Source: Methylomagnum ishizawai
GTDB taxonomy: Bacteria > Pseudomonadota > Gammaproteobacteria > Methylococcales > Methylococcaceae
Direction of reading: 5' to 3'
DNA: 64,000 nucleotides
Assembly (NCBI RefSeq): GCF_019670005.1
Contig: NZ_AP019783.1
Location: 186,001 to 250,000 of the forward strand
Shown here: positions 10,190 to 48,779 of the stretch, in pieces
Numbering within the stretch: position 1 is the stretch's first letter
Layout: the number at the start of each line of letters is the position of its first letter
Notes under the pieces: model-generated
Told to the model about the DNA's origin: nothing
Databases searched by the model: none
The model's input: only the letters and a program-made list of their open reading frames with translations
Translations under genes and position numbers: made by a program

Positions 10190-13100
10190 ATGCAACCCAT
10201 ACGCTCCCGTATCGCGCCCGTACTTTGGTCGTTCGCCCTGCTCTCCAATGCCGTCGGCGCGGCGACCCCGCCACTCGCGGTCGAGACCGACCACCGCGAA
10301 GCCACCCGGAATTTCTTCAACGCCCTGTTCTTCGCCTCCGAGGATGTGGCGATGGGCTGGACCGGCGGTTCGATAGCCGGTTGCAAGCCGGGCACCATCG
10401 GCGCGGATTTCCAAGCCGCCAGCCTGTTGCGCATCAATCTGTTCCGCGCCCTGGCCGGGGTGCCGGCCGGCATCGTCCTCGACGACGCCTTCAGCGTCCA
10501 GGCTCAGGCCGCGGCCTTGATGATGAGCGCCAAGAACACCCTCAGCCACACGCCGAAACAGGACGATCCCCACTGGCCTTGCCTGACCGACAAGGGCGAC
10601 GCGGCGGCGGGCAAATCCAACCTGAGCCTGGGCCATGCCGGGCCCGCCGCCGTGTTCGGGCAGATGCAGGACCAGGGCGGCAACAACGCCGCCGTGGGCC
10701 ACCGCCGTTGGTTGCTCTATCCCCAGACCCAGAAAATGGGCGTGGGCGATGTGGCCGGGGATGGCACCTCGGCCCATGAATCCGCCAACGCCGTCTGGGT
10801 GCAGGACGGCCATTTCGGCGATCCCAGACCCGCCACCCGTCAAGATTTCGTGTCCTGGCCCCCGCCCGGATTCTTGCCTTATCCCCTGATGTTCCCGCGC
10901 TGGTCGTTCTCCTTGGCGGATGCCAAATTCGACGCGGCCAAGGTCAGCGTCACCCGCGACGGCGTCGGGGTACCCGTGACCTTGGAGAAAGTGGCCGAGG
11001 GCAGCGGCGAAAACACCTTGGTGTTCAAACCCAACGATCCGGCCATCGGCGACCCCACGCCCGCCCCGGCCGGCGATATCCGCTTCGATGTCAAAGTGGA
11101 AAAAGTGAAGCTCGCCGGCGCGGAGTTACCGCCCTTCACCTATAGCGTGACCCTGTTCGACCCCGCCCGCTACGACACCGACACCGTGTTGCCCGATATC
11201 AGCGGCCCGGACCATCCGGTCGCGGGGCAGGCCGCCGTCTACGACATTTTGGGCACCGTGCCGGGGGCCGATGGCTATGAATGGCTGCAAGCCCCGCCCA
11301 GCCCCTACGCCACGGTGCAAAGCGCCGAGTCGGGAACCGACCCGGATGTCGAGACCCACACCACCCTCGGCTACAACTTCGTCACCGACGAATTCGCCGC
11401 CGACGGCAGCCATGCCTACGTCCTGCGCCATTTCCGTCCCGAGGCCCAAACCCTGACCCTGAAGAAGCTGTTCCTGCCCGGTGCCGCGGCCCGGCTGAAT
11501 TTCCAAAGCCGCCTAGGCCGGGCCAGCGCGTTCGAGGTGGCGAAAGTGCAATATTCGCTGGACGGCGGGCAGGCTTGGCACGATCTCTACATCCAGGCCG
11601 GGCAGCAGGATGGCAGCGTCCCGGTCGAGAATGGTTTCAGCCCGCGCAGCATCGACCTGGATAGCCTCGCCGGACGCCCGCTCCGTATCCGCTTCCGCTA
11701 CGACCTGGCCGCGCCGGGAGCCGGTGCCTTCACCACGCCATCCAGCGGCGATGCCGTGGGTTGGTATATCGACGCGGTGGCGTTCGAAGATATGGAAGCG
11801 CTGGACCCGGTCGCCATCGCCAGCGCCGAGGCCGGGCCCGGTTTCTCGTTCACCGGCGCGGCCCCCGGTGCCCTGGTCCTGGCGGGGCGCGGCACCTTGA
11901 GCGGCCAGCCCTTGGAATGGGGGCCGGTCAAGGCGGTGCGGGTATTTTCCAGCGGTGCCAACCAAACCCCGGTGGCGGACGCCGGTCCCGCCCAGACCGC
12001 CACCGTCAACACCCTGGTTACTTTGGACGGCAGCCGTAGCCTCGATCCCGACCACAGTCCCGCCGCCCTGCGTTATCAATGGATCCAGCAATCCGGTCCC
12101 AACGCGCCCTTGGCCGCCGCCAACACCGCCCATCCCAGTTTCACCCCGGCCGCCACCGGTACCTATGTGTTCGCGCTCAAGGTGGACGACACCCAGGCGA
12201 CCAGCGCCGCCGCCACGGTCGCCATCAAAGTGATCCCGCCCAACCAAGCCCCCATCGCCGACGCCGGGCCGGATCAGCAAGGCGTGGTGGGCAAGCCGGT
12301 CACGCTGGACGGCGGTGCCAGCCACGACCCCGATAACGGTCCGAAATCCCTGGTCTACCTCTGGCAGCAAGACGCGGGACCGATTGCGGTCAAACTGGAC
12401 CCCGTGGCCCAGCCCAGCTTCGCCACCCAAGTGGCGGGTAGCTATGCCTTCCATCTCAAGGTCAACGACGGTGCCTTGGATAGCGCGGTGGACACGGTGA
12501 ACGTGACGGTCCGGGAGTCCGACCAAGCCCCGACCGCCAACGCCGGCCCGGACCGCAGCGTCGTCCTGGGTTCGACCGTGACCCTGGACGGTAGCCAGAG
12601 CCGCGATCCCGACAACGGTCCCAGCCCGCTCAGCTACGCCTGGGAAGCGCCCAACGGCGTGGTCCTCGGCGGGGCCAACACCGCCCATCCCAGCTTCAAA
12701 CCCACGCAATTGGGCACTTATGGTTTCCGCCTGACCGTGAGCGATGGCGTCGCGGCTTATAAAAGCTCCGACACCGTCACCATCACCGTGACCAACGCCG
12801 CCCCGGTGGCGAACGCCGGACCGGACCGGAGCGTCCTGCTGGGTTCGACCGTGACCTTGGACGGCAGCCAGAGCCGCGATCCCGATAACGCGCCGAATCC
12901 GCTCAAATACCTGTGGGAAGCCCCGCCCGGCTCGAATATCGCCCTGACCGGGGCCGATACCCCGCATCCGAGCTTCAAAGCCGATCAAGTCGGCAGGTTC
13001 GAGTTCAGCCTCACCGTCGACGATGGCAACCAGAAGAATTTCGACATGGTGAAGATCAACGTGACCAACGCCGCCCCGGTCGCCAACGCCGGGCCGGACC

Positions 13101-21858: not shown

Positions 21859-24800
21859 TCAAGTCCCGCCTGGCTCCATGCCCAAGCCGGATCGTAGCGC
21901 CGCCAGCCGTCCGGGGTCGGGCCGTTCCACGCAGGCGATGGCCCGCAATCCCCATGTCCCCGCCTGTTCCACGGCGACTTCGGCGAACCCGGCGGCCCGC
22001 AGCGCCCGCTCCAATGTCCCGGCGGTGAAGCCGGTATGGTGGGGGGCGGCGCGGTCGCCATAGATCAGGTCCAGCGGGGACGCGGCGGCGGCGGGCATCT
22101 CCGCCTCCAATTTATCTCCGGCGATCCAGTGCGCGATGGCCCCCAAATCCGGCACCTCCACCCACACATAAGCCCCCGCCGCCAGCATCCGGCGGAATTC
22201 CCCCAGCACCGTCGGCACTTCTTGCGGATACAGCCGCTGTAGCTGGTGCGGCGCGACGATGGCGTCGAGCGAGGCCGTCGCCACCTGGGCCAGCGCCGCC
22301 GGGTCGGCGTGGTCCAACCGGGTGGCGTCCCAGTCCGGGGCGGGGAATGCGCCGGGCCGGGAATCGCCGCCGATATACAGCAGCTTCCGAACGGGCCGGA
22401 CTTCCCTCGGCAAGGGCGGGATGGCGAAGGATTCGGCCACCCCACCCGCCTGCCAGATTTCCCACATGCGGACATAGGCCGCTTCCAGGTGCAGCCGCGA
22501 GCGCTCCAGATCGAACAAGGGCTCCGTGGCGCGGTGGCGTTCGAGCTTGGCTTTGAGCGCGGCCAGCGCCTCCGGCTGGGTAGCGAGGCGCAGGGCCAGG
22601 GCTTCGTAGGCTTCCGGGGTGGCGGCGATGAGTTCCGGCAGCCCCGCCGCCCGCAACAGGCTACCGGCCATGCGGCTGGCGAAGGCGCGGCCCGGCAGGG
22701 TCAGCACCGGCAAGCCCATCCACAGCGCGTCGGCGGCGGTGGTGCCGGCGTTGTACGGCAGGGTGTCGAGGAACAAATCGGCCTGCCGGAACCGCGCCAG
22801 ATATTCCGGCCTGGGCATCCGGCCCCCGAACACCAGCCGCGCCGGGTCCACGCCCCGCGCCCCGGCCTCGCGCCGCAGGTTGCTTTCCACTTCGGCATTG
22901 GCTTGGTAAAGCCATAGCACGCTGTCCGGCACCTGCCGCAACAAGCGCATCCAGATATCGAACACCGGCGGATGGATTTTGTAGGTGTTGTTGAAACAGC
23001 AGAACACGAAGCCGTGTTCGGGCAGGCCGAGTTCGGCGCGGGAGGGCGTGGGGGTGTCGAGCGGACGCCGGGCGGCGCTTTGGAAGCATTCGGGCAGCCG
23101 CGCCACCCGCTCGACATAGAAGCCCTCGTCGCCCGGCGGCACCACGAAGTCGTCGGCCAGGAGGTAATCGATATAGCCCGCGCCCAGGGTGCCGGGATGG
23201 CCGAGGTAATTGACTTGGATCGGCGCGGCGCGGCAGGCGAAGATGCCGGTGCGGGCGTTGCGGGTGTGTCCGGCCAGATCGACGGCGATATCGATTTCCA
23301 GGTCGCGGAGCCACTGGGCCAGCGCCGGGTCGGAATAGCCATGGGCATCGATGAAGCGGTCCGCCGCCCGTTCCACCCGCGTCCGCCATGCGTCCGCCGC
23401 CGGTTGGCCCAGGGCGACGGCGGTGATCTCGAAGCGGGTCCGGTCGTGCCCTTCCAGCAGGTCGGCGGTCAGGTGGGCCACGGGATGGTCGCGCCAATCG
23501 GGCGAGATATAGGCGATGCGGATGCGGTCGTGGCGGTGGCGCGGCAGTTGCGGCGCGGGTTGTTCGGGGTATTTGTCGCGGACATGGATTTCGGCGCCCA
23601 GGCGTTGTTCCAGCGGATCGCCGCCGACATTGAGCAGGGTCCAGGGCGGGCTGCCGCGGTAGCCGGCGTACACGCTCCGCCTGAGCCGCTGGTGGAGTTC
23701 GGCTTGGCCACGCCAATCGCAGACGAGGTCGCGGCAGAGGACCGCCATCCCGGCGGAATCCGGGTAATCCGGCTTCAAGGCCAGGGTGCGCTCGAAACAG
23801 GCCAGGGCTTCGTTCCACAGCCGGTTGTCGAAATACAGGGAACCCAGGTTGTCGTGGATATCGGCGCGGTTGGGGTCCAGGACCAGGGCTTGGCGGTAGG
23901 CGGCCTCGGCTTCTTGCTGGCGTCCCATGTAGCGGAGCAGGTTGCCCAGGTTGCTGTAGGCGTCCGGGTATTCCGGCCTGAGCGCCAGCGCCTTGCGGAA
24001 GGCGGCTTCCGATTCTTCCAGCCGCACGCTGACCTTGTACAGCACGCCCAGGTTGCCATAAACCTCGGCATAGTCCGGTTTCAATTCCAAAGCCTTGAGA
24101 TAGGCGGCCTCGGCCTCGGCGTAGCGGTTGCCGTCGTTCAGCAAATTCCCGAGCTCGTTGTAGAACGTGGCGGCGTCCGGTTTGAGCGCGATGGCCCGGC
24201 GCTGCATGGCCTCGGCTTCCGCCCTGCGCTTGGTTTCGCGGAGGACGGTGCCCAGGGCGTTATGGGCCTCGGCATAGTCCGGCTTGAGCCGGATCGCCTC
24301 CCGGTAGGCGGCTTCGGCGTCCGCCGGTTTCCCCCCTTGCTTGAGCAAATTGCCCAGGTTGTTCCAGGCTTCCGGGTAATCCGGTTTGAATGCCAGGGCT
24401 TGGCGATAAAGGGCTTCGGCCTCGTCCGGGCGCAAGGCTTTGCGGAGGGTGACGGCCAGGTTGTTGAGCGCCTCGGGGTTGTCGGGCTTGAGCGCCAGGG
24501 ATTGGCGGTAGGCGGCTTCCGCCGCTTCCAGGCGTCCGCCTTCGCTCAGGGCGTTGCCGATGGTGTTCAACTGTCCGGGCTGGGTGGGGTTCAAGGCCAG
24601 GGCGCGTTGGTAGAGGTCCAGCGCCTCCGGTTGGCGACCCCTGTGCCGGAGTAGCTGGGCCAGCGAGAGGTAGGGACCGACATCGCCGGGGTCGATTTCC
24701 AGCAATTGGCGGTAGGCGGTTTCGGCATCGGCGATGCGGCCCATGTCGCGGTAGATGACCGCGAGATTGCGGCGGGCTTCCCGGTACGTGGGCTGGGCGG

Positions 24801-27267
24801 CGACCAGCTTGAGCAGGAGCCGTTCCGCCGTCGCGTAGTCTTGGGTGCGGGCGGCGAGCACGGCCAGGAAATTGAGCGCTTCCGGGTCGTCGGGACGCAG
24901 GGCGAGGTATTGCTCGAGCCGGGTCCGGGCCGCTTCCAATTGGTTGGCGTGGTAGAGGCGGGCCGCTTCTTGATAAATCTGGGCGGCCTGGGTGGGTTTG
25001 GGCTTGTGCTTGGCCATGGTGGATTCGTCGGGCTTGGGGGATTCGTCGGATGTGGGTGGGAGTTCGATGGCGAGATGGGCGGGCGCGGCCCCGCGCTGCC
25101 AGTTTTCCCACATCGCCGTGTAGGCGGCTTCGAGGGTCCTGGTGGAACGCGGCACGTCGAACAAGGGCTGGTGCCGGAGGTTCCGTTCCAGCTTGGCCTT
25201 GAGCGCGGCCAGGGCGTCCGGCTCGGTGGCGAGGCGCACGGCCAGGGCTTCGTAGTCCGCCGCGTTGTGGACGATCAATTCGGGCAGGCCCGCCGCCCGC
25301 AACAGGCTCCCGCCCATGCGGGCGGCGAAGGAGCGCCCGGCCTGGGTCAGCACCGGCAGGCCCATCCACAGGGCGTCGCTGGCGGTGGTGCCGGCGTTAT
25401 AGGGCAGCGTGTCCAGGAACAGATCGGCGCGGCGGTAACGGGCCAGATAGTCCGGCGGCGGCAGGCGTCCGCCGAACACCAGCCGTCCGGGGGCGACGCC
25501 ACGGGCCTGGGCTTCGCGCCGGAGGTTGTCCTCGACCTGGGGATGCGGTTTGAGCAACCAGAGGACGCCGCCCTCGACCCGCCGCAACACCCGCATCCAT
25601 AGGTCGAATTGCAGCGGGTGGATTTTATAGGTGTTGTTGAAACTACAGAACACGAAGCCGGTTTCCGGCAGGCCGAGTTCGGCGCGGGTCGGGGTCGTCG
25701 CGGCGGGCTGGCGGTAGGCGGCGCATTGGAAGGTGTCGGGGAGCCGGACGATGCGTTCGGCATACCCACTTTCCTCCGCCTCCGGGACGACGAAGGCGTC
25801 GGCCAAGAGGTAATCCATGTAGTCCACGCCCAGGGTGCCGGGATAACCCAGGTAGTTGACCTGGATCGGCGCGGCGCGGCGGGCGAACAAACCGGGCCGG
25901 GCGTTGCGGGTGTGGCCGGCCAAATCCACCGCGATATCGATTTCCAAGTCCCGGAGACGCCGGGTCAGGTCCGCGTCGGAGACGCCGTGGCCGTCGATGA
26001 ACACATCGAAGCCCCGTTCCAGCCTTTGCCGGAAGGCGTCTTGGACCTTCGGCCCCAGCGACACGCCGACCACCTCGAAACGGGCGCGGTCGTGGCTTTC
26101 GATCAAATCGACGACGAGGTGGGCGACGGGATGGTTCTGGAAATCCGGGGAAATGTAGGCGAGGCGGATTTTCGGATGGCGGTGGCGCGGCAGGGGGCGT
26201 TCGGCACCGGGGAAAGGCGGTGGCGCGTACAGCGCGGCGCAGCGCCGTTGGGCCTCGGGGTCGTCGAGGGCGTTCATCAGCGAGAACGGCGTGGCGCAGG
26301 GCAGGCCCGCCGCGATGCCCCGCGCCAAGCGTTCCATCATGGCGGCGTGGTCGGTCCAATCGCAGAGCTTGGCCCGGCTATGCGCGGCCATGCCCTGGGC
26401 GTAGCGGTGATCCGGGGCGATGCGCAAGAGTTCGTCGAAGCATTCCACCGTTTCGACGAAGGCATCGTTCCGTCCCGACAGCAGGCTCGCCAGGTTATAG
26501 AGCACCGCCGGATTATGGGGGGCGAGCCGCCGGGCTTCGCGGTATTCGGCCTCGGCTTCCTTGAACCGGCCCATCTGTTTCATCAACACGCCCAGGCCGT
26601 TATGGGCCTCGGCGTGGCCCGGTTTGAGCTCCAAAACCCGGCGGTAGGCGGCTGCGGCTTCCTGGGGCCGGGCCAGTTCGGTCAGCAAGCGGCCCAGGTT
26701 GTGATGGGCCTCGGGGAAATCGGGCTGCAAATCCAAGGCGCGGCGGATCAGGGTTTCGGCCTCGTCCAGGCGATGGCGGTGTTGCATCAACACGCCCAGC
26801 CCCAGATGGGCCGCCGCCAAGCCGGGGTTGCGCTCCAGGGCGAGCCGGAAGCTGGCTTCGGCTTCCGCCTCCCGGCCCGTTTTCAGGAGCAGGTTGCCCA
26901 GGTTGATCCAGGCGTTGGCATGGCCGGGGTCGAGGTCCAGGGTTCGCCGGTAGAGGGCTTCGGCCTCGGCGTTCCGGCCCAGGTTGACCAAGAGTCCGGC
27001 CAGGTTGCTCTGGGCTTCGGCGAATTGCGGGAAGGCTTGGATGATCGCCCGGAATCCGGCTTCCGCTTCGGCTTCGCGCCCGGTCTGGGCGGCGACGAGG
27101 GCGGCGAGATGGCGGGCGTCCCAATGTTCGGGGTTGTCGGCGAGCAGGGCCAGCGCCATCGCCTCGGCTTCGGTCCAGCGTCCCGCGGAATAAAGGCGGG
27201 CGGCTTCGGCATAGCTGGGGCTGGGGACTGGATTCCCTGGCACGGCGGTCCGGGAGGGAGGGGTCAT
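21859..27267 (-). CDS. Giant fusion: two TPR/SPINDLY-type O-GlcNAc transferases plus C-terminal methyltransferase-like domain
   Basis: 1802 residues in one uninterrupted frame. Unit 1 has TPR repeats (about 15-290) and an OGT catalytic domain (about 355-740). Unit 2 begins at an internal Met (residue 751, MAKHKPKPTQAAQIY) with about 13 TPRs (755-1190) and a second OGT domain (about 1245-1615). The tail (about 1622-1802; LLYIGGDSRPGAFPAPDWD, AYVWVEVPDLGAIAHW) looks like a degraded class I SAM methyltransferase. Both OGT domains keep counterparts of human OGT residues: His in FQNHPVAHL and WRDHPVAHL, and the UDP-binding Lys in SFNNTYKIHP and CFNNTYKIHP. Both also keep APIQVNYLG(Y/H)PGTLG and LPYNAGTTA. 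Bacterial relatives glycosylate proteins such as flagellins or adhesins. Two genes probably fused after tandem duplication. The internal Met has no good ribosome binding site. The target is unknown. Confidence 0.9.
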   Translation of the reverse strand: MTPPSRTAVPGNPVPSPSYAEAARLYSAGRWTEAEAMALALLADNPEHWDARHLAALVAAQTGREAEAEAGFRAIIQAFPQFAEAQSNLAGLLVNLGRNAEAEALYRRTLDLDPGHANAWINLGNLLLKTGREAEAEASFRLALERNPGLAAAHLGLGVLMQHRHRLDEAETLIRRALDLQPDFPEAHHNLGRLLTELARPQEAAAAYRRVLELKPGHAEAHNGLGVLMKQMGRFKEAEAEYREARRLAPHNPAVLYNLASLLSGRNDAFVETVECFDELLRIAPDHRYAQGMAAHSRAKLCDWTDHAAMMERLARGIAAGLPCATPFSLMNALDDPEAQRRCAALYAPPPFPGAERPLPRHRHPKIRLAYISPDFQNHPVAHLVVDLIESHDRARFEVVGVSLGPKVQDAFRQRLERGFDVFIDGHGVSDADLTRRLRDLEIDIAVDLAGHTRNARPGLFARRAAPIQVNYLGYPGTLGVDYMDYLLADAFVVPEAEESGYAERIVRLPDTFQCAAYRQPAATTPTRAELGLPETGFVFCSFNNTYKIHPLQFDLWMRVLRRVEGGVLWLLKPHPQVEDNLRREAQARGVAPGRLVFGGRLPPPDYLARYRRADLFLDTLPYNAGTTASDALWMGLPVLTQAGRSFAARMGGSLLRAAGLPELIVHNAADYEALAVRLATEPDALAALKAKLERNLRHQPLFDVPRSTRTLEAAYTAMWENWQRGAAPAHLAIELPPTSDESPKPDESTMAKHKPKPTQAAQIYQEAARLYHANQLEAARTRLEQYLALRPDDPEALNFLAVLAARTQDYATAERLLLKLVAAQPTYREARRNLAVIYRDMGRIADAETAYRQLLEIDPGDVGPYLSLAQLLRHRGRQPEALDLYQRALALNPTQPGQLNTIGNALSEGGRLEAAEAAYRQSLALKPDNPEALNNLAVTLRKALRPDEAEALYRQALAFKPDYPEAWNNLGNLLKQGGKPADAEAAYREAIRLKPDYAEAHNALGTVLRETKRRAEAEAMQRRAIALKPDAATFYNELGNLLNDGNRYAEAEAAYLKALELKPDYAEVYGNLGVLYKVSVRLEESEAAFRKALALRPEYPDAYSNLGNLLRYMGRQQEAEAAYRQALVLDPNRADIHDNLGSLYFDNRLWNEALACFERTLALKPDYPDSAGMAVLCRDLVCDWRGQAELHQRLRRSVYAGYRGSPPWTLLNVGGDPLEQRLGAEIHVRDKYPEQPAPQLPRHRHDRIRIAYISPDWRDHPVAHLTADLLEGHDRTRFEITAVALGQPAADAWRTRVERAADRFIDAHGYSDPALAQWLRDLEIDIAVDLAGHTRNARTGIFACRAAPIQVNYLGHPGTLGAGYIDYLLADDFVVPPGDEGFYVERVARLPECFQSAARRPLDTPTPSRAELGLPEHGFVFCCFNNTYKIHPPVFDIWMRLLRQVPDSVLWLYQANAEVESNLRREAGARGVDPARLVFGGRMPRPEYLARFRQADLFLDTLPYNAGTTAADALWMGLPVLTLPGRAFASRMAGSLLRAAGLPELIAATPEAYEALALRLATQPEALAALKAKLERHRATEPLFDLERSRLHLEAAYVRMWEIWQAGGVAESFAIPPLPREVRPVRKLLYIGGDSRPGAFPAPDWDATRLDHADPAALAQVATASLDAIVAPHQLQRLYPQEVPTVLGEFRRMLAAGAYVWVEVPDLGAIAHWIAGDKLEAEMPAAAASPLDLIYGDRAAPHHTGFTAGTLERALRAAGFAEVAVEQAGTWGLRAIACVERPDPGRLAALRSGLGMEPGGT

Positions 27268-27434: not shown

Positions 27435-27875
27435 TCACTGCGGGTTTTGCTGGCCTAATAGCAGTTTGCCCGCCGCGATGAAGGCGGTGTTTTGATAGGC
27501 CACGAACACGCCCCGGCACAGGGCTTGGTAGCGCGATTGCACCCGGACCACGATGCGCATGGGCTGTGCGGGATTGAGCGCCGACTTGAATTCCAATTCC
27601 TCGAACGCCCTGGGCAGATCGGGCAAAGCGTCCAAGGCCAGGGGATCGCGCAGGTCGGAGGCGAGCACCGCGCCCATGACTTGGACCACGTTGTCGAGTA
27701 CCCATTGCCGGGTGGTTTCGGGGTTGGCCCAAGTCGCGGGGCCGGCCCAGCCCGGCGGCGGGTTGACCGAGGCGGAGCCGTGGTAGCCGGGGGTTTCGAT
27801 GTTCACGCTATGGGCTGGGGTGGGGGGAATCCGGCCCGATGGCGCGGATTCGAGGGGAAGGGCGTCCGGTTTCAT
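27435..27875 (-). CDS. Hypothetical protein, 146 residues
   Basis: I do not recognise a family. A Pro-rich N-terminus (about 1-50) is followed by a compact region with TTRQWVLDNVVQVMGAVLAS and FKSALNPAQPMRIVVRVQSR. The C-terminal hydrophobic stretch VAYQNTAFIAAGKLLLGQQ is too short and polar for a sure membrane helix. No signal peptide is seen. It lies upstream of the O-GlcNAc-transferase gene on the same strand and divergent from the alpha-2-macroglobulin gene. Only a weak AAGAGA precedes the start. The opposite-strand frame over the same bases shows no domain. Confidence 0.5.
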   Translation of the reverse strand: MKPDALPLESAPSGRIPPTPAHSVNIETPGYHGSASVNPPPGWAGPATWANPETTRQWVLDNVVQVMGAVLASDLRDPLALDALPDLPRAFEELEFKSALNPAQPMRIVVRVQSRYQALCRGVFVAYQNTAFIAAGKLLLGQQNPQ

Positions 27876-40944: not shown

Positions 40945-41223
40945 ATGTCCGGGAAACCGCGGGTCGAGATCGAATATTGCACCCAGTGCCGCTGGTTGTT
41001 GCGGGCGGCGTGGCTGGCGCAGGAGTTATTGACCACCTTCGAGGAGGAATTGGGCGGCGTGGCCTTGATCCCCGGCACGGGCGGGGTGTTCGAGGTGCGC
41101 TGCGGGGAAAGGACGCTGTGGTCGCGCAAGCAGGAGGGACGCTTCCCCGAGGCCAAGGAGTTGAAGCAGCGGGTCCGCGACGAGATCGCCCCCGACCGTT
41201 CGTTGGGCCATTCCGACCGCTAA
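40945..41223 (+). CDS. SelT/SelW/SelH (Rdx) family protein, cysteine form
   Basis: 92 residues, with GGGAGGAG before ATG 40945. The thioredoxin-like fold shows the CxxC redox motif at the end of strand 1 (IEYCTQCRW, where animal SelW has CxxU), then GVFEVRCGERTLWSRKQEGR and FPEAKELKQRVRD. The family is thought to act in thiol redox control; bacterial function is not settled. It converges with pilE, with a 4-bp overlap at the stops. Confidence 0.9.
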   Translation: MSGKPRVEIEYCTQCRWLLRAAWLAQELLTTFEEELGGVALIPGTGGVFEVRCGERTLWSRKQEGRFPEAKELKQRVRDEIAPDRSLGHSDR

Positions 41224-41660
41224 TTGCGCCAGCAGTCGGCGACGGCCAGCCCCGGCAGCGCGTTGGCGATGCCCCGCACATTGGCCGAGCTGAGCGTCAG
41301 GGTGCCGCAACGGTCGTGGGCCTGGACGCCCACGGGCACGGCCTTCAAGGTGTAGCCGGTGGCGGTGAGGTCGGCGATCTGTAGTTGATAGTTCGGCGGG
41401 CCGTCCGCCGGGACTTGGTCGGAAAAGATCGAGCCGGGAGCCAAACCCAGCGCGGCGGTGGCGTAGCTGCTGTGGGTGGTGAACAGCCGCTCCAGGGCTT
41501 GTTGCAGGCCATATAAGGCACCTTCCGCGTCGGCCCGCCGTCCGCTCCGCACCTGCTCCGTGTAGCTCGGATAGGCGATGGCGGCCAGGATGCCGACGAT
41601 GGCGAGGACGACGATGGCCTCGACCAGGGTGAAGCCGGAAGGATGTGGAGGTTGGTTCAT
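41220..41660 (-). CDS. pilE: Type IV pilus minor pilin PilE
   Basis: 146 residues. A short leader, MNQPPHPSG, is cut by PilD before the N-methylated Phe in GFTLVEAIVVLAIVGILAAI, with Glu5 conserved. The globular part has a C-terminal disulfide candidate (DRCGTLTLSS and VADCWRN). As last gene of the fimT-pilVWXY1E operon it matches Pseudomonas pilE, a minor pilin that joins the priming complex with PilVWX and PilY1. A major pilin is less likely from the context. Confidence 0.9.
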   Translation of the reverse strand: MNQPPHPSGFTLVEAIVVLAIVGILAAIAYPSYTEQVRSGRRADAEGALYGLQQALERLFTTHSSYATAALGLAPGSIFSDQVPADGPPNYQLQIADLTATGYTLKAVPVGVQAHDRCGTLTLSSANVRGIANALPGLAVADCWRN

Positions 41661-41682
41661 GGCGGGGTGTCCTGTGGGGGGT

Positions 41683-44600
41683 TCAGCGGATTTGCCGCCA
41701 GGATTGGCGGCCTGGGTTGTCGGCGCTATTGCCCTTTTGGACTTCCGCGCTGGCCCGGCCTTCGTCGTCGACGCCCGCCGAGGTGTTGGTGATGCGGTGG
41801 ATATGGCCGCCATCGCGGACGATGCGGGTGGAACTGGGGAGGGCGTCGAAGGCCAGTCCCGTGGGTGCCCCGCCGTTCCCGATATCCTTGCCGTCGATGT
41901 GGCCGTCCTTGTTCACGTCGAACAGCGGCGCATCGACGGCGGGCGCGCCCCCGGTGAAGGCGTCCAGTTCCATGATCCAACCGCTGCCGCCGGCGGCGCA
42001 GTGCTGTTGGGTCGGCGCGAGGGTGGTGTAGGTGATCTTGCCGTCGTGCAGCACCGGGTCGCTCACGGAGCGCTCGCCCCGGACCTCGCCGCCGGGGCCG
42101 ATCAGGTCCAGATACCAGCCTTGCTGGGTGGCGTAATCGACCGGGTTGGACGAGGTGAAACGCGCCTTGTATAGCCCCAGGCGGGCTTCGCCGAGGATGG
42201 TTTGCCGGGCCAGCTTGGCCTTCGCCACCGGCGGGACCGTGCCGGTGCTTGAATTGCCGTCCCAGACGCCATAGAGCGTTTGCGGCTGCTGGCCGATGGG
42301 GGCGGTGGGGTCATTGTCGCCCTGGAGGAAATAGCGTCCCGTGCCGAAGTACACCATGAAGCCGGGCAATTGGCCCTGGGCCAGCCCGACCTGGGGCTTG
42401 CCGGTGATGGGTTGCCGGTCGGCGTCGGCGCAGGGCGTGCCGTTATTGACGCAGGCGACGAACAAGGGCGCGGGCCTGCCGCCCGCATGATGGGCGAAAT
42501 CCCAGTTCTCGAGCTTGGGATCGGTGAAATCGAGCTTCCAGAGGTTGCCGGTCAAATCCCCGGCGTAGACATAATCCGCCTTGCGGTCCTGGTTCATGTC
42601 GATGGCGATGGGCGAGGACAGGCCGTTTTTGTCGATCCAGGCGTTGCCGCCCGCCAGGGTATCGAAGCGCTTGAGGAGACTGCCGCTGGCCAGGTCGAGG
42701 ACGAACAGCACCGCGTGGCCGTTCTGGCTGTAATAGCCGTTCGCCACCAGGGCCACCCAGGGATGTTCCTCGTCGTTGGTGCGGAGCAGGACGGCCTGGG
42801 GCAGGCTATAGCCCAGGTCGGGCAGACGGGTGTTGTCGGTGGTGGCGAATTCCCACAGCACGTCGGCGGTGCCGAACCCACCCGGATGGCCGATATCCAA
42901 CGCGAAGACGCCGCGCCCGCCCGCGCCGGTCGTGCCCAGCAGGAGGGTTTTCCAGCGCCCGCCCAAATAGGCGTCGCCCACCCAGGGCGAGCCGTCCACG
43001 AAGAATTTGTGGTGGCTGGAATCCTGGATATAGGCCGGGGAACTCAGCCGGTTCAGGTTGGCATAGGCGGTGCTGGGCACATAGCCGAACACCTCCTCGC
43101 CGCCCGCCGCGCCGCCGGTGGCGTTGAAGGCGTGGAGCATCCCGTCGTTGCCGCCGATATAGAGCATGGGCGGGCGGCTGGCCTTGTCGTTGGCGAGATA
43201 ATCGGCGTAGGCGGTGCCTTCGGTGCCGGGCAGCAGGTCGTAGCCGAAATCCTGGCCACCGGCGAAGGCCGGGTTGGAATTCACGAAGTCGCCGAGCAGG
43301 CGCTCCGTGCTGCCCTTGGCGTCGGTGCGGTCGCGAAAGGGGCCGCCGTGGCGCATTTCCTTGGAGGTATCGCCCTTGAGGTATTCCACCCGCGCCGGGC
43401 CGAGCTTGTCCGGGGGGAGGGTCTGGTCGGGATCGTACCCGCTGTCGAGCTGGGCCTGTTGGTCGCAATTCAAGAATTCCCAGTCGAAGGGGATGGCCTT
43501 GCCGACCGCCCCGCCACCGCAGGCGGTGCCCTGGGGATTGTAGGAGAAGATGTGTTGCTGGCGGTAGGGATAGGAGGCGCTGGTCAGCTTCGCGGAGGCT
43601 TGCCAAACCGGCGGGTCCGAGAGCCGCCCGTCGGCGAATTTGAAGGCGTAGACCTCCCCGCTCCAATCGCCGCTGTCGAAACCGGCCATGAACACCAGGG
43701 TATCGGCGCTCAGATAGACCGAGGTGGTGGCGACCGAGGAGGCGGAGCCCGAGTTTTGCGCGATGGTGTTGATGATCTCGCCCAGTTTGTCGCGGAGGTC
43801 CACGGGGTTTTTGGCGCTGAACAACCGGCCCCGGCCATTGAGGGTGGCGTGCCAGAAGTCGTCCTCCTTGTCGGCGATGGTGAACGCGCTGGTGGTCGAT
43901 GGCCAGTCCGCAGCGGTGAGGGCGTAGGGGTCGAGCTTGGGATTGTCCGGCTTGAACAGCTTGCCCGGAACGCCCAGGCTGACCCCGTAGAAATTCATGT
44001 GGGGGTTGTTGTTGCAATCCAGGCCGGGATCGTGCCCCGGCTTGGCGCAGGCGCTGGGGATGGGCACCTGGCCTGGGGAGAGGCCTGGAGTGGCGGAATC
44101 AAGTCCGACATAATATTTCATGGCGATATCGGCGAGGGTATCCGACGCCCCATCCTTATAGGGGTCTATCCCCGAGAATATATTTTTCCCGTCGCCGCTT
44201 TTGAAGAGGCTGTTATCGACATTGCCGACGCCTATCGTGACATTGGCTTTATAGTCGTAGGCACCGTCCGTGAACAGGATACCCGAGTTTTTTTGGCAGG
44301 AGTATTGGATGGTGTCCGCCTGCTCGAACTGCATCCCCATGTATTTCACCGCCTGCCGGTTGGGCGTGGCCCCCGTGAAATTATAATAGTAAACCCCGTT
44401 GTCATTATTGGTCAGCAAGGCATTGCGGTCGCCGACATTGCTCAGATTCTTCAGCGCCAGGCTGGGTAGCGGGGTTTTTATATTGCTCACACCGGGAGGG
44501 GCTTCGATCACGGCGTTGATCCTGAAGATACCCAGGTTCATGCCCTTGATATGTTCCAGGGCGAAGCCGATGGCCCCCCGGGTCGCCAATTGCCGGCTCC

Positions 44601-45783
44601 GGTAATAGGTGAACCAATTGGCGAAATTCCGCAAGGCTGACGCGCATTGGTTCAGGTCGGAGAAATGGGCGCTATCGCAGCGGATTTCATAGCGCTTCAG
44701 CCGGGTCCGGCTTTGCCCGCCGAGGTTCCAGGTATCCTTGTCCAGATAATCGATGCCGCCGCCATTGTCCAAATCCCAATATAACGCCTGCAAGGCCGGG
44801 GGGCTGGCGGAATCCAGCCCTTTGACGATGGCGTCGTGTTCGAGGTCGTGGACGTATGAGCTGAAATACTTGGGATAGGCGGCACGGATATCGAGGGTAT
44901 CCGGCAGGTAGAAGGTCGCCGGATAATATTGCACCCCGAGTTTGTTCAGCGGCGGGAGCGAGTTGGAGGGATCGTTTAGCTTAAAGGGGTTTCTGAGCGA
45001 ATCCGGGTTGGTCACCCAGGTGCCGCTGTTGACCGAACCATTCGGGGTGCTCCATTTGAAATAAGGGGTATCCGCGGGCAGGGTCGGGGCATCCCAGGTT
45101 TTCGCGCCGTTTACAAGGTAATAGCCCTTGCCGCGGAAGGGGGTGCTGCCCGTGCCGGCATAGAAGGTATAACCCCAGCCGGCGCATTTTATGGGGCTGT
45201 CGAGCGGGAAGGTATTGGGGAAATCAGGCGTCGGGGGCGGACAGGCGGCGTTATTGTTATAGTTGGGTACGATATTTTCGGTCGGCCTGTTCGATTTGAC
45301 CGGGTCCCAACGCGCCGCGGCGGGATCGGAGGGGTTGAAAACCAGATCGTAATCGGCCCAGGGCTGGTAATCGGTGCCGGGGTCGAAATACTGGCTATTG
45401 AACGCCGGGGAGCGGGCGTCGGCATATTCGGGAAGCGGCGGCACGACGCCCGTGGTATATAGGTTGGAACCGCCCCCCTGCGTGGCCAAGCCGAAGGGGT
45501 TGTTATAGGCATCGGGAAACAGCGAAGCCTGCACATAGGTGTTGGTGGCGAAATAATAGGAGTCGTTCACGCCATAGGGCATCACCACTTCGGCGGTCAT
45601 GCTGGACGAATCGTCCACTCCCATGATGACGTTGGGCATTTCGGCATTGCCGAGGAACAGCGGCACGTCGGCAATCGAACCCTCCCCCCGCGCCGTCGGC
45701 ATGCCGCAGGACAACGCCAATACCGCCGCCCCGAGCGCACCGCGCCGGAATGGGATGGGTGGGCCGTCGAATCCGCTGTGCAT
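41683..45783 (-). CDS. pilY1: Type IV pilus tip-associated adhesin PilY1
   Basis: 1366 residues from ATG 45783, with a signal peptide ending near ARGEG. The N-terminal part has a VWA-like MIDAS start, VIMGVDDSSSMTAE (DxSxS), typical of mechanosensing PilY1. The C-terminal half is the conserved beta-propeller (NDGMLHAFNATGG, LLGTTGAGGRGVFALDIGHP) with a calcium loop DMNQDRKADYVYAGD (about 1060), which controls pilus extension in Pseudomonas. A second EF-hand-like loop, DVNKDGHIDGKD (about 1294), lies close to the C-terminus. The protein is secreted and sits at the pilus tip. Spacing of 22 bp to pilE and 10 bp to pilX supports one operon. The region before the propeller (44100-45300) is less GC-rich than its flanks, as expected for a fast-evolving adhesin domain. 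Confidence 0.93.
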   Translation of the reverse strand: MHSGFDGPPIPFRRGALGAAVLALSCGMPTARGEGSIADVPLFLGNAEMPNVIMGVDDSSSMTAEVVMPYGVNDSYYFATNTYVQASLFPDAYNNPFGLATQGGGSNLYTTGVVPPLPEYADARSPAFNSQYFDPGTDYQPWADYDLVFNPSDPAAARWDPVKSNRPTENIVPNYNNNAACPPPTPDFPNTFPLDSPIKCAGWGYTFYAGTGSTPFRGKGYYLVNGAKTWDAPTLPADTPYFKWSTPNGSVNSGTWVTNPDSLRNPFKLNDPSNSLPPLNKLGVQYYPATFYLPDTLDIRAAYPKYFSSYVHDLEHDAIVKGLDSASPPALQALYWDLDNGGGIDYLDKDTWNLGGQSRTRLKRYEIRCDSAHFSDLNQCASALRNFANWFTYYRSRQLATRGAIGFALEHIKGMNLGIFRINAVIEAPPGVSNIKTPLPSLALKNLSNVGDRNALLTNNDNGVYYYNFTGATPNRQAVKYMGMQFEQADTIQYSCQKNSGILFTDGAYDYKANVTIGVGNVDNSLFKSGDGKNIFSGIDPYKDGASDTLADIAMKYYVGLDSATPGLSPGQVPIPSACAKPGHDPGLDCNNNPHMNFYGVSLGVPGKLFKPDNPKLDPYALTAADWPSTTSAFTIADKEDDFWHATLNGRGRLFSAKNPVDLRDKLGEIINTIAQNSGSASSVATTSVYLSADTLVFMAGFDSGDWSGEVYAFKFADGRLSDPPVWQASAKLTSASYPYRQQHIFSYNPQGTACGGGAVGKAIPFDWEFLNCDQQAQLDSGYDPDQTLPPDKLGPARVEYLKGDTSKEMRHGGPFRDRTDAKGSTERLLGDFVNSNPAFAGGQDFGYDLLPGTEGTAYADYLANDKASRPPMLYIGGNDGMLHAFNATGGAAGGEEVFGYVPSTAYANLNRLSSPAYIQDSSHHKFFVDGSPWVGDAYLGGRWKTLLLGTTGAGGRGVFALDIGHPGGFGTADVLWEFATTDNTRLPDLGYSLPQAVLLRTNDEEHPWVALVANGYYSQNGHAVLFVLDLASGSLLKRFDTLAGGNAWIDKNGLSSPIAIDMNQDRKADYVYAGDLTGNLWKLDFTDPKLENWDFAHHAGGRPAPLFVACVNNGTPCADADRQPITGKPQVGLAQGQLPGFMVYFGTGRYFLQGDNDPTAPIGQQPQTLYGVWDGNSSTGTVPPVAKAKLARQTILGEARLGLYKARFTSSNPVDYATQQGWYLDLIGPGGEVRGERSVSDPVLHDGKITYTTLAPTQQHCAAGGSGWIMELDAFTGGAPAVDAPLFDVNKDGHIDGKDIGNGGAPTGLAFDALPSSTRIVRDGGHIHRITNTSAGVDDEGRASAEVQKGNSADNPGRQSWRQIR

Positions 45784-45793
45784 GGCGATACCC

Positions 45794-46354
45794 CTAGTGG
45801 CTGGTTTTATAGGTGGATTGCACGATGGCGACGGCGTCCGGGGTGCCGCCACCGCCATGCGCGGTGATGCGGTAATAATGGTTCTGTACCGGCGGACTCC
45901 CGGCGGTGAGTCCGGCGTTGCCGGGGTCGTCCACGAATTGCAGTTTTTCCACGATGTAGCTGGGCGGCTGGGCGATTTGGGCCAGGGAACCCATGTAGGG
46001 CGTCGTCCGGGCCGGGTCGTTCCAGGCGTCGGCGTTGTCGATCAGCTTCCAGACCGGGATCGCTTGGATATCGCTGGCATAGCAGCCCGAACCATCCAAG
46101 CCGTCGGCGGGGGTGCCGGTGCAGGGCACTTCGCCGCCGGGATACGCCAGGGCTTGGTTCCGCAACCATCGCTCGCCCTGCCGTAGCGCGGACTCGGCGG
46201 CCTGGAAGGCCAAATCCCGGCTGCGGGCGTTGCCGGCCATTTTTTCCTCCAGCGCCGTGGTTTGCACCGCCGCCGCGCCGATCACGGTCATGACCAGCAG
46301 CGTCACCAATCCCACGATGAGGGCTCCGCCGGCCTGGGAGGCGATCCGGCGCAT
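45794..46354 (-). CDS. pilX: Minor pilin PilX
   Basis: 186 residues from ATG 46354. The N-terminus RRIASQAGGALIVGLVTLLV is the PilX form of the class III pilin helix (GxxLIVxLV), followed by MTVIGAAAVQTTALEEKMAG and ARSRDLAFQAAESALRQGER, all family hallmarks. The C-terminal PilX domain has NHYYRITAHGGGG. It is a core part of the pilus-priming complex with PilV, PilW and PilY1. It starts 19 bp after the pilW stop. Confidence 0.9.
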   Translation of the reverse strand: MRRIASQAGGALIVGLVTLLVMTVIGAAAVQTTALEEKMAGNARSRDLAFQAAESALRQGERWLRNQALAYPGGEVPCTGTPADGLDGSGCYASDIQAIPVWKLIDNADAWNDPARTTPYMGSLAQIAQPPSYIVEKLQFVDDPGNAGLTAGSPPVQNHYYRITAHGGGGTPDAVAIVQSTYKTSH

Positions 46355-46373
46355 GCTGTGGATTCCGGGGGGC

Positions 46374-47495
46374 TTATTGGACGCGGATGCCATTGCGCAG
46401 GGCGATGGTCGCGGTGAAGACCTGCCGCAGCCGGCGGTCGTCGGCGGGGTCGATCCAGGTGCCGTTGAGGTCGTAGAGTTCGGCGTCCGGGTCTTTGCGG
46501 ACGTTGTCCTCCACGCTCCGCAGCAGCAGGGCGATCCGCACGCTGACGACCCGGTTCCAATCGGCGATGCTGGAGGCGGGGGAATATTGGAGCGTGCCAT
46601 TGCCATTTTGTACGCCGTAGACCAGTTGCATGTTTTCCACGCCCTCGACCACGGCTTCGCCGGGGGTGTTGGTGCCGCTGTTCCTGGGCTTGCGGTAGAG
46701 CGAGGTGCCGGGGTCGTTGTCGGCCCGCGACAGGTAATACAGCGTCGAGGCCACCCGGTAGACCTCGGCGGGCAGCGAGCCGTGGGGGTTCTGGAGCGAG
46801 GCGAGGTTCGCCGTTTTGATGGCGCTCCAGGTGGTGGTGGCATTGCCGGGATTGCCACCCGCCGCGTGGCCGAGGAGATTGCCGGCCCCGGTGTTCTGGA
46901 ACACATAGGCGGAAGAGCAATCGGCCACCATCACGAAATCGTCGGGCTGGAGGCCGGGTTGGCCGGGATCGCCCGAGGGCGCGACCGTCACCGTATCCGG
47001 GGTCGCGCTTTGCAACGCATCGGGAACCCCGCTATCGGCCCGCCCGCGCACCAGCAGGATATCGTTGCCGAGGACCATGCTGGTGGGGAGCGCGGCGGGC
47101 AGCCTCGGGTTCCATTGGGCGGTCGCCCCCGAAGTCTGGGGGTTGCCCGGGATGGCCAGGCGTTCCCCCGGAAAGGAACCCTTGGCCTCGTAGCCGGCGA
47201 GCCGGGTGCCGAAGTCGTAGAAAGGGTTGCCGTTGGCGTTGAGGGTATTGGTCACGGTGGCCGGGGATTGGGAGGTGCAGCCCAGGGAGCCGGCCATGCG
47301 GATATCCCGCCCCATCCGGTCCAGGGCGTAGCGGGCGTTTTCCTGGAGCCGGGAGAGTTGTTCCTGGACGGTGTAGGTTTGTTTGGTCGCGAGATAGACC
47401 TGGCCGATGCCCGCCATCAGCAGCAGCCCCGTCGCCAGGGCCACCATGATCTCGACCAGGGAGAAGCCCGCGCCGGGCCGGGGCGGGTCGCTCAT
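46374..47495 (-). CDS. pilW: Minor pilin PilW
   Basis: 373 residues from ATG 47495. The prepilin motif GFSLVEIMVALATGLLLMAG is followed by QVYLATKQTYTVQEQLSRLQ and ENARYALDRMGRDIRMAGSL, typical of PilW. The C-terminal globular part is large and includes VVSVRIALLLRSVEDN. PilW bridges PilX and PilV in the priming complex. Its start overlaps the pilV stop by 4 bp. Confidence 0.9.
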   Translation of the reverse strand: MSDPPRPGAGFSLVEIMVALATGLLLMAGIGQVYLATKQTYTVQEQLSRLQENARYALDRMGRDIRMAGSLGCTSQSPATVTNTLNANGNPFYDFGTRLAGYEAKGSFPGERLAIPGNPQTSGATAQWNPRLPAALPTSMVLGNDILLVRGRADSGVPDALQSATPDTVTVAPSGDPGQPGLQPDDFVMVADCSSAYVFQNTGAGNLLGHAAGGNPGNATTTWSAIKTANLASLQNPHGSLPAEVYRVASTLYYLSRADNDPGTSLYRKPRNSGTNTPGEAVVEGVENMQLVYGVQNGNGTLQYSPASSIADWNRVVSVRIALLLRSVEDNVRKDPDAELYDLNGTWIDPADDRRLRQVFTATIALRNGIRVQ

Positions 47496-47992
47496 GGCGA
47501 GAAGCTGGTCGAGAAGCGTTGGTATTGTTCCGCGTCCCCGGTGCGGTCGTCGTCCCACCAGATTTTCACGGTGTAGGTGCCCCCGCCGCCGCAGCCCGTC
47601 GATACCGGCGTGCCGTCGTCGGGGCTGCCGTCGGTGCAGACCACGCCGCTGCCATCGGGCAGGCGCTTTTTCACCTCGGCGGCCCATTGGCTCAGGTCGT
47701 AATCCGCGGTTTGCGCGTCCGAGCAGGCGTTCCAAAGGCAGTCGATGGCGTTGGTGCCGGCCTGGTTGTCGTAGTTGCCATTGCCGAGGGCGCCGGGGTT
47801 GGCGCGGATGCGGTCGATGATTTCGGCGGCGAGTTGGGTGGCGACGGAGCGCTGGACCGCGCTGAGGCTGCCGCGCAGTCCCAGGGTTTGCAGCCCGGCC
47901 AGTCCCAGCAGGCCGACGCCCAGGACCAGGGCGGCGATCAGGACTTCGAGCAGGGTGAAGCCTTGGCAGGCGCGGGCGGCGTTCAAGGACAT
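47492..47992 (-). CDS. pilV: Minor pilin PilV
   Basis: 166 residues from ATG 47992. The leader MSLNAARACQG is cut before FTLLEVLIAALVLGVGLLGL, the PilV form of the prepilin helix. RSVATQLAAEIIDRIRANPG and the C-terminal YTVKIWWDDDRTGDAEQYQR strand complete the family pattern. It overlaps fimT by 10 bp at its 5' end and pilW by 4 bp at its 3' end, so translation is probably coupled. Confidence 0.92.
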   Translation of the reverse strand: MSLNAARACQGFTLLEVLIAALVLGVGLLGLAGLQTLGLRGSLSAVQRSVATQLAAEIIDRIRANPGALGNGNYDNQAGTNAIDCLWNACSDAQTADYDLSQWAAEVKKRLPDGSGVVCTDGSPDDGTPVSTGCGGGGTYTVKIWWDDDRTGDAEQYQRFSTSFSP

Positions 47993-48558
47993 GCCGTGGC
48001 TCCCGTCCGCACCCTGGCGCGGCCCAGGCTGTTGAGGACGATGGCCCGGCCTTGCGCCGCGTTGTCGCCTTGGCAGAGGTTGAAGGTGTCGTCCACCTGC
48101 CCGCCCGCGCCGCTGCCCTTGCCCGTCCCGACGGAATTGAACGCGACCCAATCCGCGTCGTGGGAGCCCACCCGCAAGGTCAGCGTCTTCGGCAGGGGCT
48201 CGAATACCCGGATCAGGGTGTCCGCGTCGTCGGGCAGGTTGTTCGGCGGGACGTTGGCGTCGGCCAGGACGAGCCAGCCTTTTTCCCAGCAGCCGCCGCC
48301 GGAGCAAGGAGCGGAATCGCAGGCGGGTTGTGCCGCCTCCGTGTCCGCCTTGCATAGGAACACCATCTGGCCGCGCTTGATCGCCTCGCTACGCGCCAGG
48401 TTCAACGCGCCCAGGAAACGGTTGGAATGGGCGGCCATACGGTTGGCGCGGATCATGTCTTGGAAACTCGGAAGGCCCAAGATCAACACGAGAGCCGCTA
48501 TCGAGACAGTCGCCACAAGTTCGATCAGGGTAAAGCCCGCTATCTTTGCTTTTAACAT
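47983..48558 (-). CDS. fimT: FimT/GspH-type minor pseudopilin
   Basis: 191 residues from ATG 48558. The short leader MLKAKIAG precedes FTLIELVATVSIAALVLILG. SFQDMIRANRMAAHSNRFLG and ALNLARSEAIKRGQMVFLC identify the FimT/GspH family. In Acinetobacter and Legionella, FimT binds DNA and helps natural transformation. It is the first gene of the minor pilin operon. Its ribosome binding site (GAGG) lies inside a strong hairpin (48562-48591), so translation may be gated. Confidence 0.9.
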   Translation of the reverse strand: MLKAKIAGFTLIELVATVSIAALVLILGLPSFQDMIRANRMAAHSNRFLGALNLARSEAIKRGQMVFLCKADTEAAQPACDSAPCSGGGCWEKGWLVLADANVPPNNLPDDADTLIRVFEPLPKTLTLRVGSHDADWVAFNSVGTGKGSGAGGQVDDTFNLCQGDNAAQGRAIVLNSLGRARVRTGATACP

Positions 48559-48561
48559 ATT

Positions 48562-48591
48562 GGCCTCGTCACTTTGACTAAGGACGAGGCC
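48562..48591 (-). promoter_or_regulatory. Hairpin hiding the fimT Shine-Dalgarno sequence
   Basis: A perfect 9-bp stem, GGCCTCGTC (48562-48570) paired with GACGAGGCC (48583-48591), with a 12-base loop, begins 3 bases before the fimT start codon. On the mRNA the 3' arm contains GAGG five bases from the AUG, the only Shine-Dalgarno candidate, so it would be paired. There is no T-run and the position is wrong for a terminator. Opening of the stem by heat, protein or small RNA could control the pilin operon; this is inference. Confidence 0.6.
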
Positions 48592-48779
48592 GGAATATAT
48601 CAGTTTTGGCTATCAAGTTTAGCGCAAACCGACAATCGGCTTATCCATATGGATGAAAGGCGTTGCGGTGCCTGCTGCCTAGGTTGGGCGGTCCAAGGGC
48701 GATGGCGGTGTGGATCGGGATTGGCTAGGGCGGGGCTGGATCGTCCATAATCCGGGGTCTTCCCACGAATAGGCTGGAT

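Follow-up and report, generated by a model that had tools for sequence, protein, structure and literature searches.

A tandem TPR-GT41 fusion protein with a degenerate methyltransferase-like tail in Methylomagnum ishizawai

HMW1C-type enzymes of the GT41 family glycosylate proteins in the cytoplasm; for bacterial members of the family other than those of the HMW1C and flagellin groups, to our knowledge, neither donors nor substrates are known. The window analysed here, a stretch of 64,000 nucleotides from Methylomagnum ishizawai, contains a single long reading frame in which a TPR array followed by a GT41 domain occurs twice, and which ends in a methyltransferase-like region. This raises the questions of whether such a chain is real, how it came about, and what its two modules might transfer and to which acceptor. 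A sequence-only reading of the locus had described it as a tandem fusion of two complete O-GlcNAc transferases and a methyltransferase-like tail, formed as if two genes had merged. We used comparison with a second genome of the genus, phylogenetic trees, estimates of selection, structure prediction and genomic context to investigate these questions. With a probability of roughly 55%, we consider the fusion to be a cytoplasmic two-module GT41 protein glycosyltransferase that uses a donor other than UDP-GlcNAc, acts on a multi-site substrate and carries a decayed tail.

Gene structure and origin of the fusion

The frame runs from an ATG to a stop codon with zero internal stops, its ends coinciding exactly with the positions in Table 1. 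Pfam detects many TPRs and four Glyco_transf_41 stretches, i.e. two lobes in each of two domains (502 bits against a cut-off of 25), and both GT41 domains have full lobes with no truncation. At the junction of the halves Met751 sits within ...PTSDESPKPDESTMAKHKPKPT..., and the linker around it differs by a 6-residue in-frame indel between the two species. A signal peptide is not evident at the N-terminus. GC3 is even along the gene (0.77-0.93 per 60 codons), a pattern as expected for a single native gene. The same fusion, 93% identical over residues 1-1802 and without a stop, is found in the second genome of the genus (G001:C1:151425-156812), with HNH, priA, a small ORF and alpha-2-macroglobulin as common flanks. 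As an uninterrupted fusion occupies the same locus in both genomes, a merger produced by assembly or sequencing is excluded. The single chain of two complete TPR-GT41 modules, its Pro/Ser-rich junction with a methionine, and the His and Lys residues that the sequence-only reading had named in both halves are thus all confirmed. Moreover, neither of the two observations that it had listed as counting against a functional fusion is seen: there is no stop codon between the halves in either species, and neither half is decaying, dN/dS being equal for the two catalytic domains.

Table 1. Segments of the fusion (positions in the window) and further chains with several GT41 domains (positions in the respective locus)
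Feature	Positions	Strand	Details
Whole gene, TPR-GT41-TPR-GT41-methyltransferase-like fusion	21859..27267	minus	1802 aa; ORF, Pfam, conserved in G001
TPR array 1	26398..27213	minus	residues 19-290; 8 repeats x 34 aa
GT41 catalytic domain 1	25063..26187	minus	residues 361-735; D375, H379, Y547, K548, Y623 (=C917), G626 (=H920), D631; dN/dS 0.17
Pro/Ser-rich linker	24976..25062	minus	residues 736-764; internal Met751 (codon 25015-25017)
TPR array 2	23752..24975	minus	residues 765-1172; 12 repeats x 34 aa
GT41 catalytic domain 2	22438..23562	minus	residues 1236-1610; D1257, H1261, K1430, Y1505 (=C917), G1508 (=H920), D1513; dN/dS 0.17
Degenerate class I methyltransferase-like tail	21862..22407	minus	residues 1621-1802
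L060	6929-17479		Chlorobiaceae, 3517 aa, 4 GT41 domains
L066	4949-18250		Methylococcales, 4434 aa, 6 GT41 domains
L113	6950-20302		4 GT41 domains
L067, L069			4 GT41 domains each
L090			3 GT41 domains
L065			at least 3 GT41 domains, contig end
L184	7524-14369		2 GT41 domains
L094, L119, L173			2 GT41 domains each

The two halves align with 54% identity over 722 aa (E 0.0; 76% at the DNA level over 1.1 kb), and the catalytic domains are 69% identical, far beyond chance. We computed two trees, one of 176 GT41 modules and one careful tree of 51. In both, the first modules of the two species are sisters, as are the second modules, and all four form one clade (100/100 in the careful tree); their nearest single-module relatives are an 820-aa protein from the same family (G028) and an Azonexus tandem gene. 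This grouping indicates an in-place duplication of a single TPR-GT41 gene that preceded the divergence of the two species, and the trees rule out a merger of two unrelated genes. The earlier notion that two genes had merged therefore gives way to tandem duplication of one ancestral gene, and the junction methionine is not preceded by a Shine-Dalgarno-like sequence. The synonymous divergence between domains 1 and 2 (dS 0.65) compared with that of the catalytic domains between the species (0.11-0.17) places the duplication several-fold further back than the separation of the species, which supplies the alignment and dating of the halves that the sequence-only reading had proposed. The split two-gene form that it had suggested seeking in relatives also exists, as separate tandem GT41 genes at loci L061, L071, L076, L137, L170 and L171.

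GT41 matches occur in 103 of the 251 genomes of the order Methylococcales, and chains with 2-6 GT41 modules are widespread in this order, in Chlorobiaceae and elsewhere (Table 1). Such poly-GT41 chains, typified by L060 and L066, resemble the fusion in carrying several TPR-GT41 modules per frame and differ from it in having arisen independently, as the trees show. At least 12 changes between one- and multi-module states are seen on the tree, and modules within one chain are sisters in L173, L184, L119 and L090, pointing to recurrent in-place duplication. In the Methylococcales giants, the last (fourth or sixth) catalytic domain is strongly divergent. A single chain can thus carry two constrained GT41 cores, and several phyla contain chains of as many as six modules. 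Among open-licence papers, no paper was found on tandem GT41 domains, on GT41 in methanotrophs or on ALTTAQ, and the poly-GT41 class, of which the fusion is a small member, is apparently undescribed so far.

Active sites, constraint and probable donor

An alignment to human OGT (hOGT) and the 176 modules shows that the equivalents of hOGT D554, H558, Y841, K842 and D925 are kept in both modules. The essential Lys (K842) and the H558/D554 pair (numbered as in PMC9715652) are present in both modules of both species, with the Lys being invariant across all 176 modules. Between the two species (Nei-Gojobori), the catalytic domains share the dN/dS value given in Table 1, while TPR arrays 1 and 2 stand at 0.23 and 0.25, the linker at 0.47 (27 codons only) and the tail at 0.40; hence both catalytic domains have been kept equally, and the tail is under laxer constraint. 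Such constraint would be compatible with catalysis by both modules, though it is not proof of it. Asn is found at the 'xNLx' position, where hOGT carries its ladder of peptide-binding Asn residues, in 4 of the 8 repeats of array 1 and 6 of the 12 of array 2.

These data bear directly on the proposal that only one module is catalytic, with the other holding the substrate or providing a dimerisation surface, so that the chain amounts to a pseudo-dimer. Duplicated enzyme domains often specialise, and SPINDLY (SPY) acts as a dimer (PMC9715652), as does human OGT; however, the equal catalytic residues and purifying selection in both modules, neither of which has a truncated lobe, render this rather unlikely.

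The residues lining the donor pocket depart from those of OGT. The position of Cys917 is occupied by Tyr in both modules (Tyr623 and Tyr1505), the small N-acetyl-pocket residue of OGT thus being absent, and that of His920 in the OGT HTT motif by Gly (Gly626 and Gly1508). A bulky residue in place of Cys917 (Y744 in SPINDLY) has been argued to exclude UDP-GlcNAc, and the same paper notes that two enzymes carrying this Tyr, XcOGT and TtOGT, gave no O-GlcNAc transfer either on bacterial lysate or in vitro (PMC9715652). Both enzymes have conserved active sites and were inactive in most assays, a point that also counts against the reading of the fusion preferred here, and TtOGT departs from His920 as well (Cys422). 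On account of this Tyr, UDP-GlcNAc is unlikely as the donor of either module and, by analogy, a smaller hexose or deoxyhexose would fit the pocket better. The host genome carries gmd, making GDP-deoxyhexoses plausible as available donors, though the donor is not thereby shown.

Could the fusion nevertheless be a tandem version of a true O-GlcNAc transferase, moving GlcNAc from UDP-GlcNAc to Ser/Thr of surface proteins? GT41 homology, the conserved H558 and K842 equivalents and the high scores of hOGT chains in phmmer searches speak for this, and reading donor preference off a single residue amounts to reasoning by analogy. It is nonetheless distinctly unlikely in view of the Tyr and Gly substitutions in both modules, the behaviour of the Tyr-type enzymes XcOGT and TtOGT (PMC9715652) and the plausibility of gmd-derived donors; that no GH84 O-GlcNAcase was found in the host genome adds weakly to these, since the control of that search gave no match. 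The name O-GlcNAc transferase, as used in the sequence-only reading, is accordingly unsupported by the sequence, and the safe name is GT41 protein glycosyltransferase without a stated donor.

In the PDB, catalytic domain 2 is matched best by XcOGT (Xanthomonas campestris XCC0866; PDB 2jlb, 2vsn; E 5e-82), which is likewise TPR-linked and shares the Tyr at the Cys917 position and the PYNA.TTASDALW motif, but has one module (568 aa in the PDB chain), His rather than Gly at the His920 position and no methyltransferase tail. Human and Drosophila OGT have in common with the fusion the TPR superhelix, the two-lobed core and the equivalents of D554, H558, Y841, K842 and D925; they differ in possessing one core, in Cys917 and His920, and in an intervening domain between the lobes that is absent from the fusion. 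SPINDLY, a plant protein O-fucosyltransferase of GT41, shares the Tyr at Y744, the Lys at K665, the His at H495 and the Gly before TT. However, it has a lower sequence score and a single core, and its His495 is followed by Ser496, whereas both modules of the fusion read HP.

The methyltransferase-like tail

The tail has a sole Pfam match, Methyltransf_23, at 19.5 bits and hence under the cut-off of 27. An AlphaFold2 model of it (pLDDT 82.6) adopts the class I (Rossmann) methyltransferase fold, and nearly all Foldseek matches of the model are methyltransferases, albeit with moderate scores (E 1.8e-7, TMq 0.44-0.58), the methyltransferase-like domain of anamorsin being among the best. The methyltransferase-like tail of the original description is thus supported as a fold. 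Relatives of the tail exist as separate proteins of some 200 aa, whose gene typically lies one gene away from GT41 (G180, G168, G154, G208, G200, G025); in one case the relative and GT41 share a frame (G108). The free-standing versions pass the Methyltransf_11 cut-off and bear the SAM motif I VGCGP, where the fusion tail reads IG-GDSRP with a one-residue gap. Furthermore, the SSHNIEHLYPHEVP block reads APHQLQRLYPQEVP in the fusion tail, and eight residues (GNLYMAH region) are missing from it. The host genome retains a free-standing relative with HVGCGYNRK (G000:C1:2485859-2486380). An intact methyltransferase is ruled out by motif I and the Pfam score. Judged from these sequence features, the tail is a captured neighbouring methyltransferase gene whose SAM site has since been lost, and its role may be structural or regulatory at most.

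A fusion of GT41 to a methyltransferase has been reported for most enterobacterial flagellin-island GT41 enzymes (PMC4875605), in which a GT41 (COG3914) and a methyltransferase domain occupy one protein, as in the fusion. These enzymes are flagellin-linked and no double GT41 module is reported for them, whereas our fusion has no flagellin context and its tail is degenerate. A motif scan of the collected loci likewise found no flagellin near GT41 genes.

Genomic context and candidate substrates

The fusion is flanked by priA and the small ORF. Glycan, pilin and repeat-protein genes are absent from its immediate surroundings, which counts against the preferred reading, and none of its direct neighbours (priA, the small ORF, alpha-2-macroglobulin, PBP1C) is convincing as a substrate. 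The small ORF (27435-27875, minus strand, upstream of the fusion) belongs to no Pfam family and is present in 6 of the 251 genomes of the order. The nearest pilus genes lie 14 kb away with other genes between, and as a pointer to the substrate the minor-pilin/PilY1 set of the window carries little weight. This set (41223-48609, minus strand) comprises GspH/FimT, PilV- and PilW-like proteins, PilY1 (1391 aa) and a PilE-like pilin, and is syntenic in G001 with 93% DNA identity.

At other loci, GT41 genes are found near genes for type IV/MSHA pilins and near that of a Thr-rich giant made of ALTTAQ repeats. The latter (G000:C1:1735815-1743089; L180:11815-19089, minus) has 2425 residues, 77 repeats (PF20080) and 21% Thr, and its C-terminus holds DxNxDG; the host's gene for a 625-aa TPR-GT41 protein lies about 50 nt 3' of it on the same strand. 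Both genes recur together in G001 and also in another genus (G037), there about 125 nt apart, which makes the pair a candidate for a ready-made enzyme and substrate; repeat protein and GT41, encoded by just two well-defined genes, lend themselves to work on donor and acceptor. A pilin signature lies within 3 kb of GT41 at 7 of 38 loci in the family, namely in the six g8 genomes and in G025, where less than one is expected by chance at about three such pilin sites per genome. In all six g8 genomes (L046, L055, L047, L056, L057, L058), the TPR-GT41 gene and a gene for a major pilin-like protein are 0.4-0.5 kb apart, and in L046 and L055 the two are convergent; as these represent one inherited linkage, the independent cases number two. 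In G025 (L182:5890-17119, G025:C150), genes for GT41 and a tail-type methyltransferase are situated inside an MSHA pilus operon with MshE, T2SSF, N_methyl pilins and DUF6701. In the Betaproteobacteria L106, L111 and L121, too, pilin genes lie ahead of GT41 genes, and pilin genes occur near the multi-GT41 giants L069 and L113. A pilin 10 kb from a 481-aa GT41 in the host genome was dropped, as it is not kept in G001. In G200, a GT41-methyltransferase pair adjoins an ABC transporter/HlyD-like type I secretion gene, identified as HlyD by reading.

This context admits another interpretation, that the acceptor of the GT41 modules is a glycan or a lipid-linked sugar, as in pilin glycan assembly, and that protein is not modified directly. 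The gene order of L106 and L111 (pilin, a Wzy_C O-antigen ligase-like protein, GT41) fits an oligosaccharyltransferase pathway, and the globular domain of pilins is periplasmic, so that modification by a cytoplasmic enzyme would have to come before the pilin is inserted. However, Asn-ladder TPR superhelices are peptide-binding devices in hOGT and SPY, and GT41 enzymes of the HMW1C type modify proteins at the cytoplasmic stage, making this interpretation quite improbable.

Under the preferred reading of a cytoplasmic two-module protein glycosyltransferase, one TPR-GT41 gene was tandem-duplicated in the ancestor of the genus, its copies being joined by a flexible linker, and an adjoining methyltransferase gene was taken up as the C-terminal tail. 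Each TPR superhelix, with arms of 8 versus 12 repeats, might grip an extended, unfolded stretch of the target and deliver it to its own GT41 core, and each core would draw on a nucleotide sugar to place a single sugar on Ser/Thr. Both modules would be active, and their linkage may confer higher avidity and allow more sites to be modified on a multi-site substrate, such as a Thr-rich repeat protein or a surface or pilus protein. The two TPR sets might also, as the sequence-only reading suggested, read two substrates or make the enzyme processive. A comparison of one-, two- and multi-module enzymes would tell if linkage makes glycosylation processive. As a broader and tentative proposal, possible though on balance doubtful, poly-GT41 proteins may be recurrent processive protein glycosyltransferases, whose modules walk along giant Thr-rich ALTTAQ-type repeats or load pilins to produce dense simple-sugar coats from a non-GlcNAc donor, the architecture having repeatedly arisen by in-place duplication.

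That the cell instead makes two proteins, whether because translation also starts at Met751 or because the Pro/Ser linker is cleaved, is very improbable: both species retain the ATG of Met751, the rapidly evolving linker accommodates an in-frame indel, and relatives have the separate tandem genes listed above, but the frame is open across the junction in both species and the search ahead of Met751 yielded no Shine-Dalgarno-like sequence. Two of the arrays of separate tandem GT41 genes (L170 and L171; genomes G095 and G209) share a nearby pair of proteins (L170:5328-7615; L171:5398-6144, 11480-12346), for which a search without a positive control found no homologue in the window's family; the pair consists of a small secreted Ser/Thr-rich protein (38% identity between the loci) and an STN-like/HEAT protein (37%).
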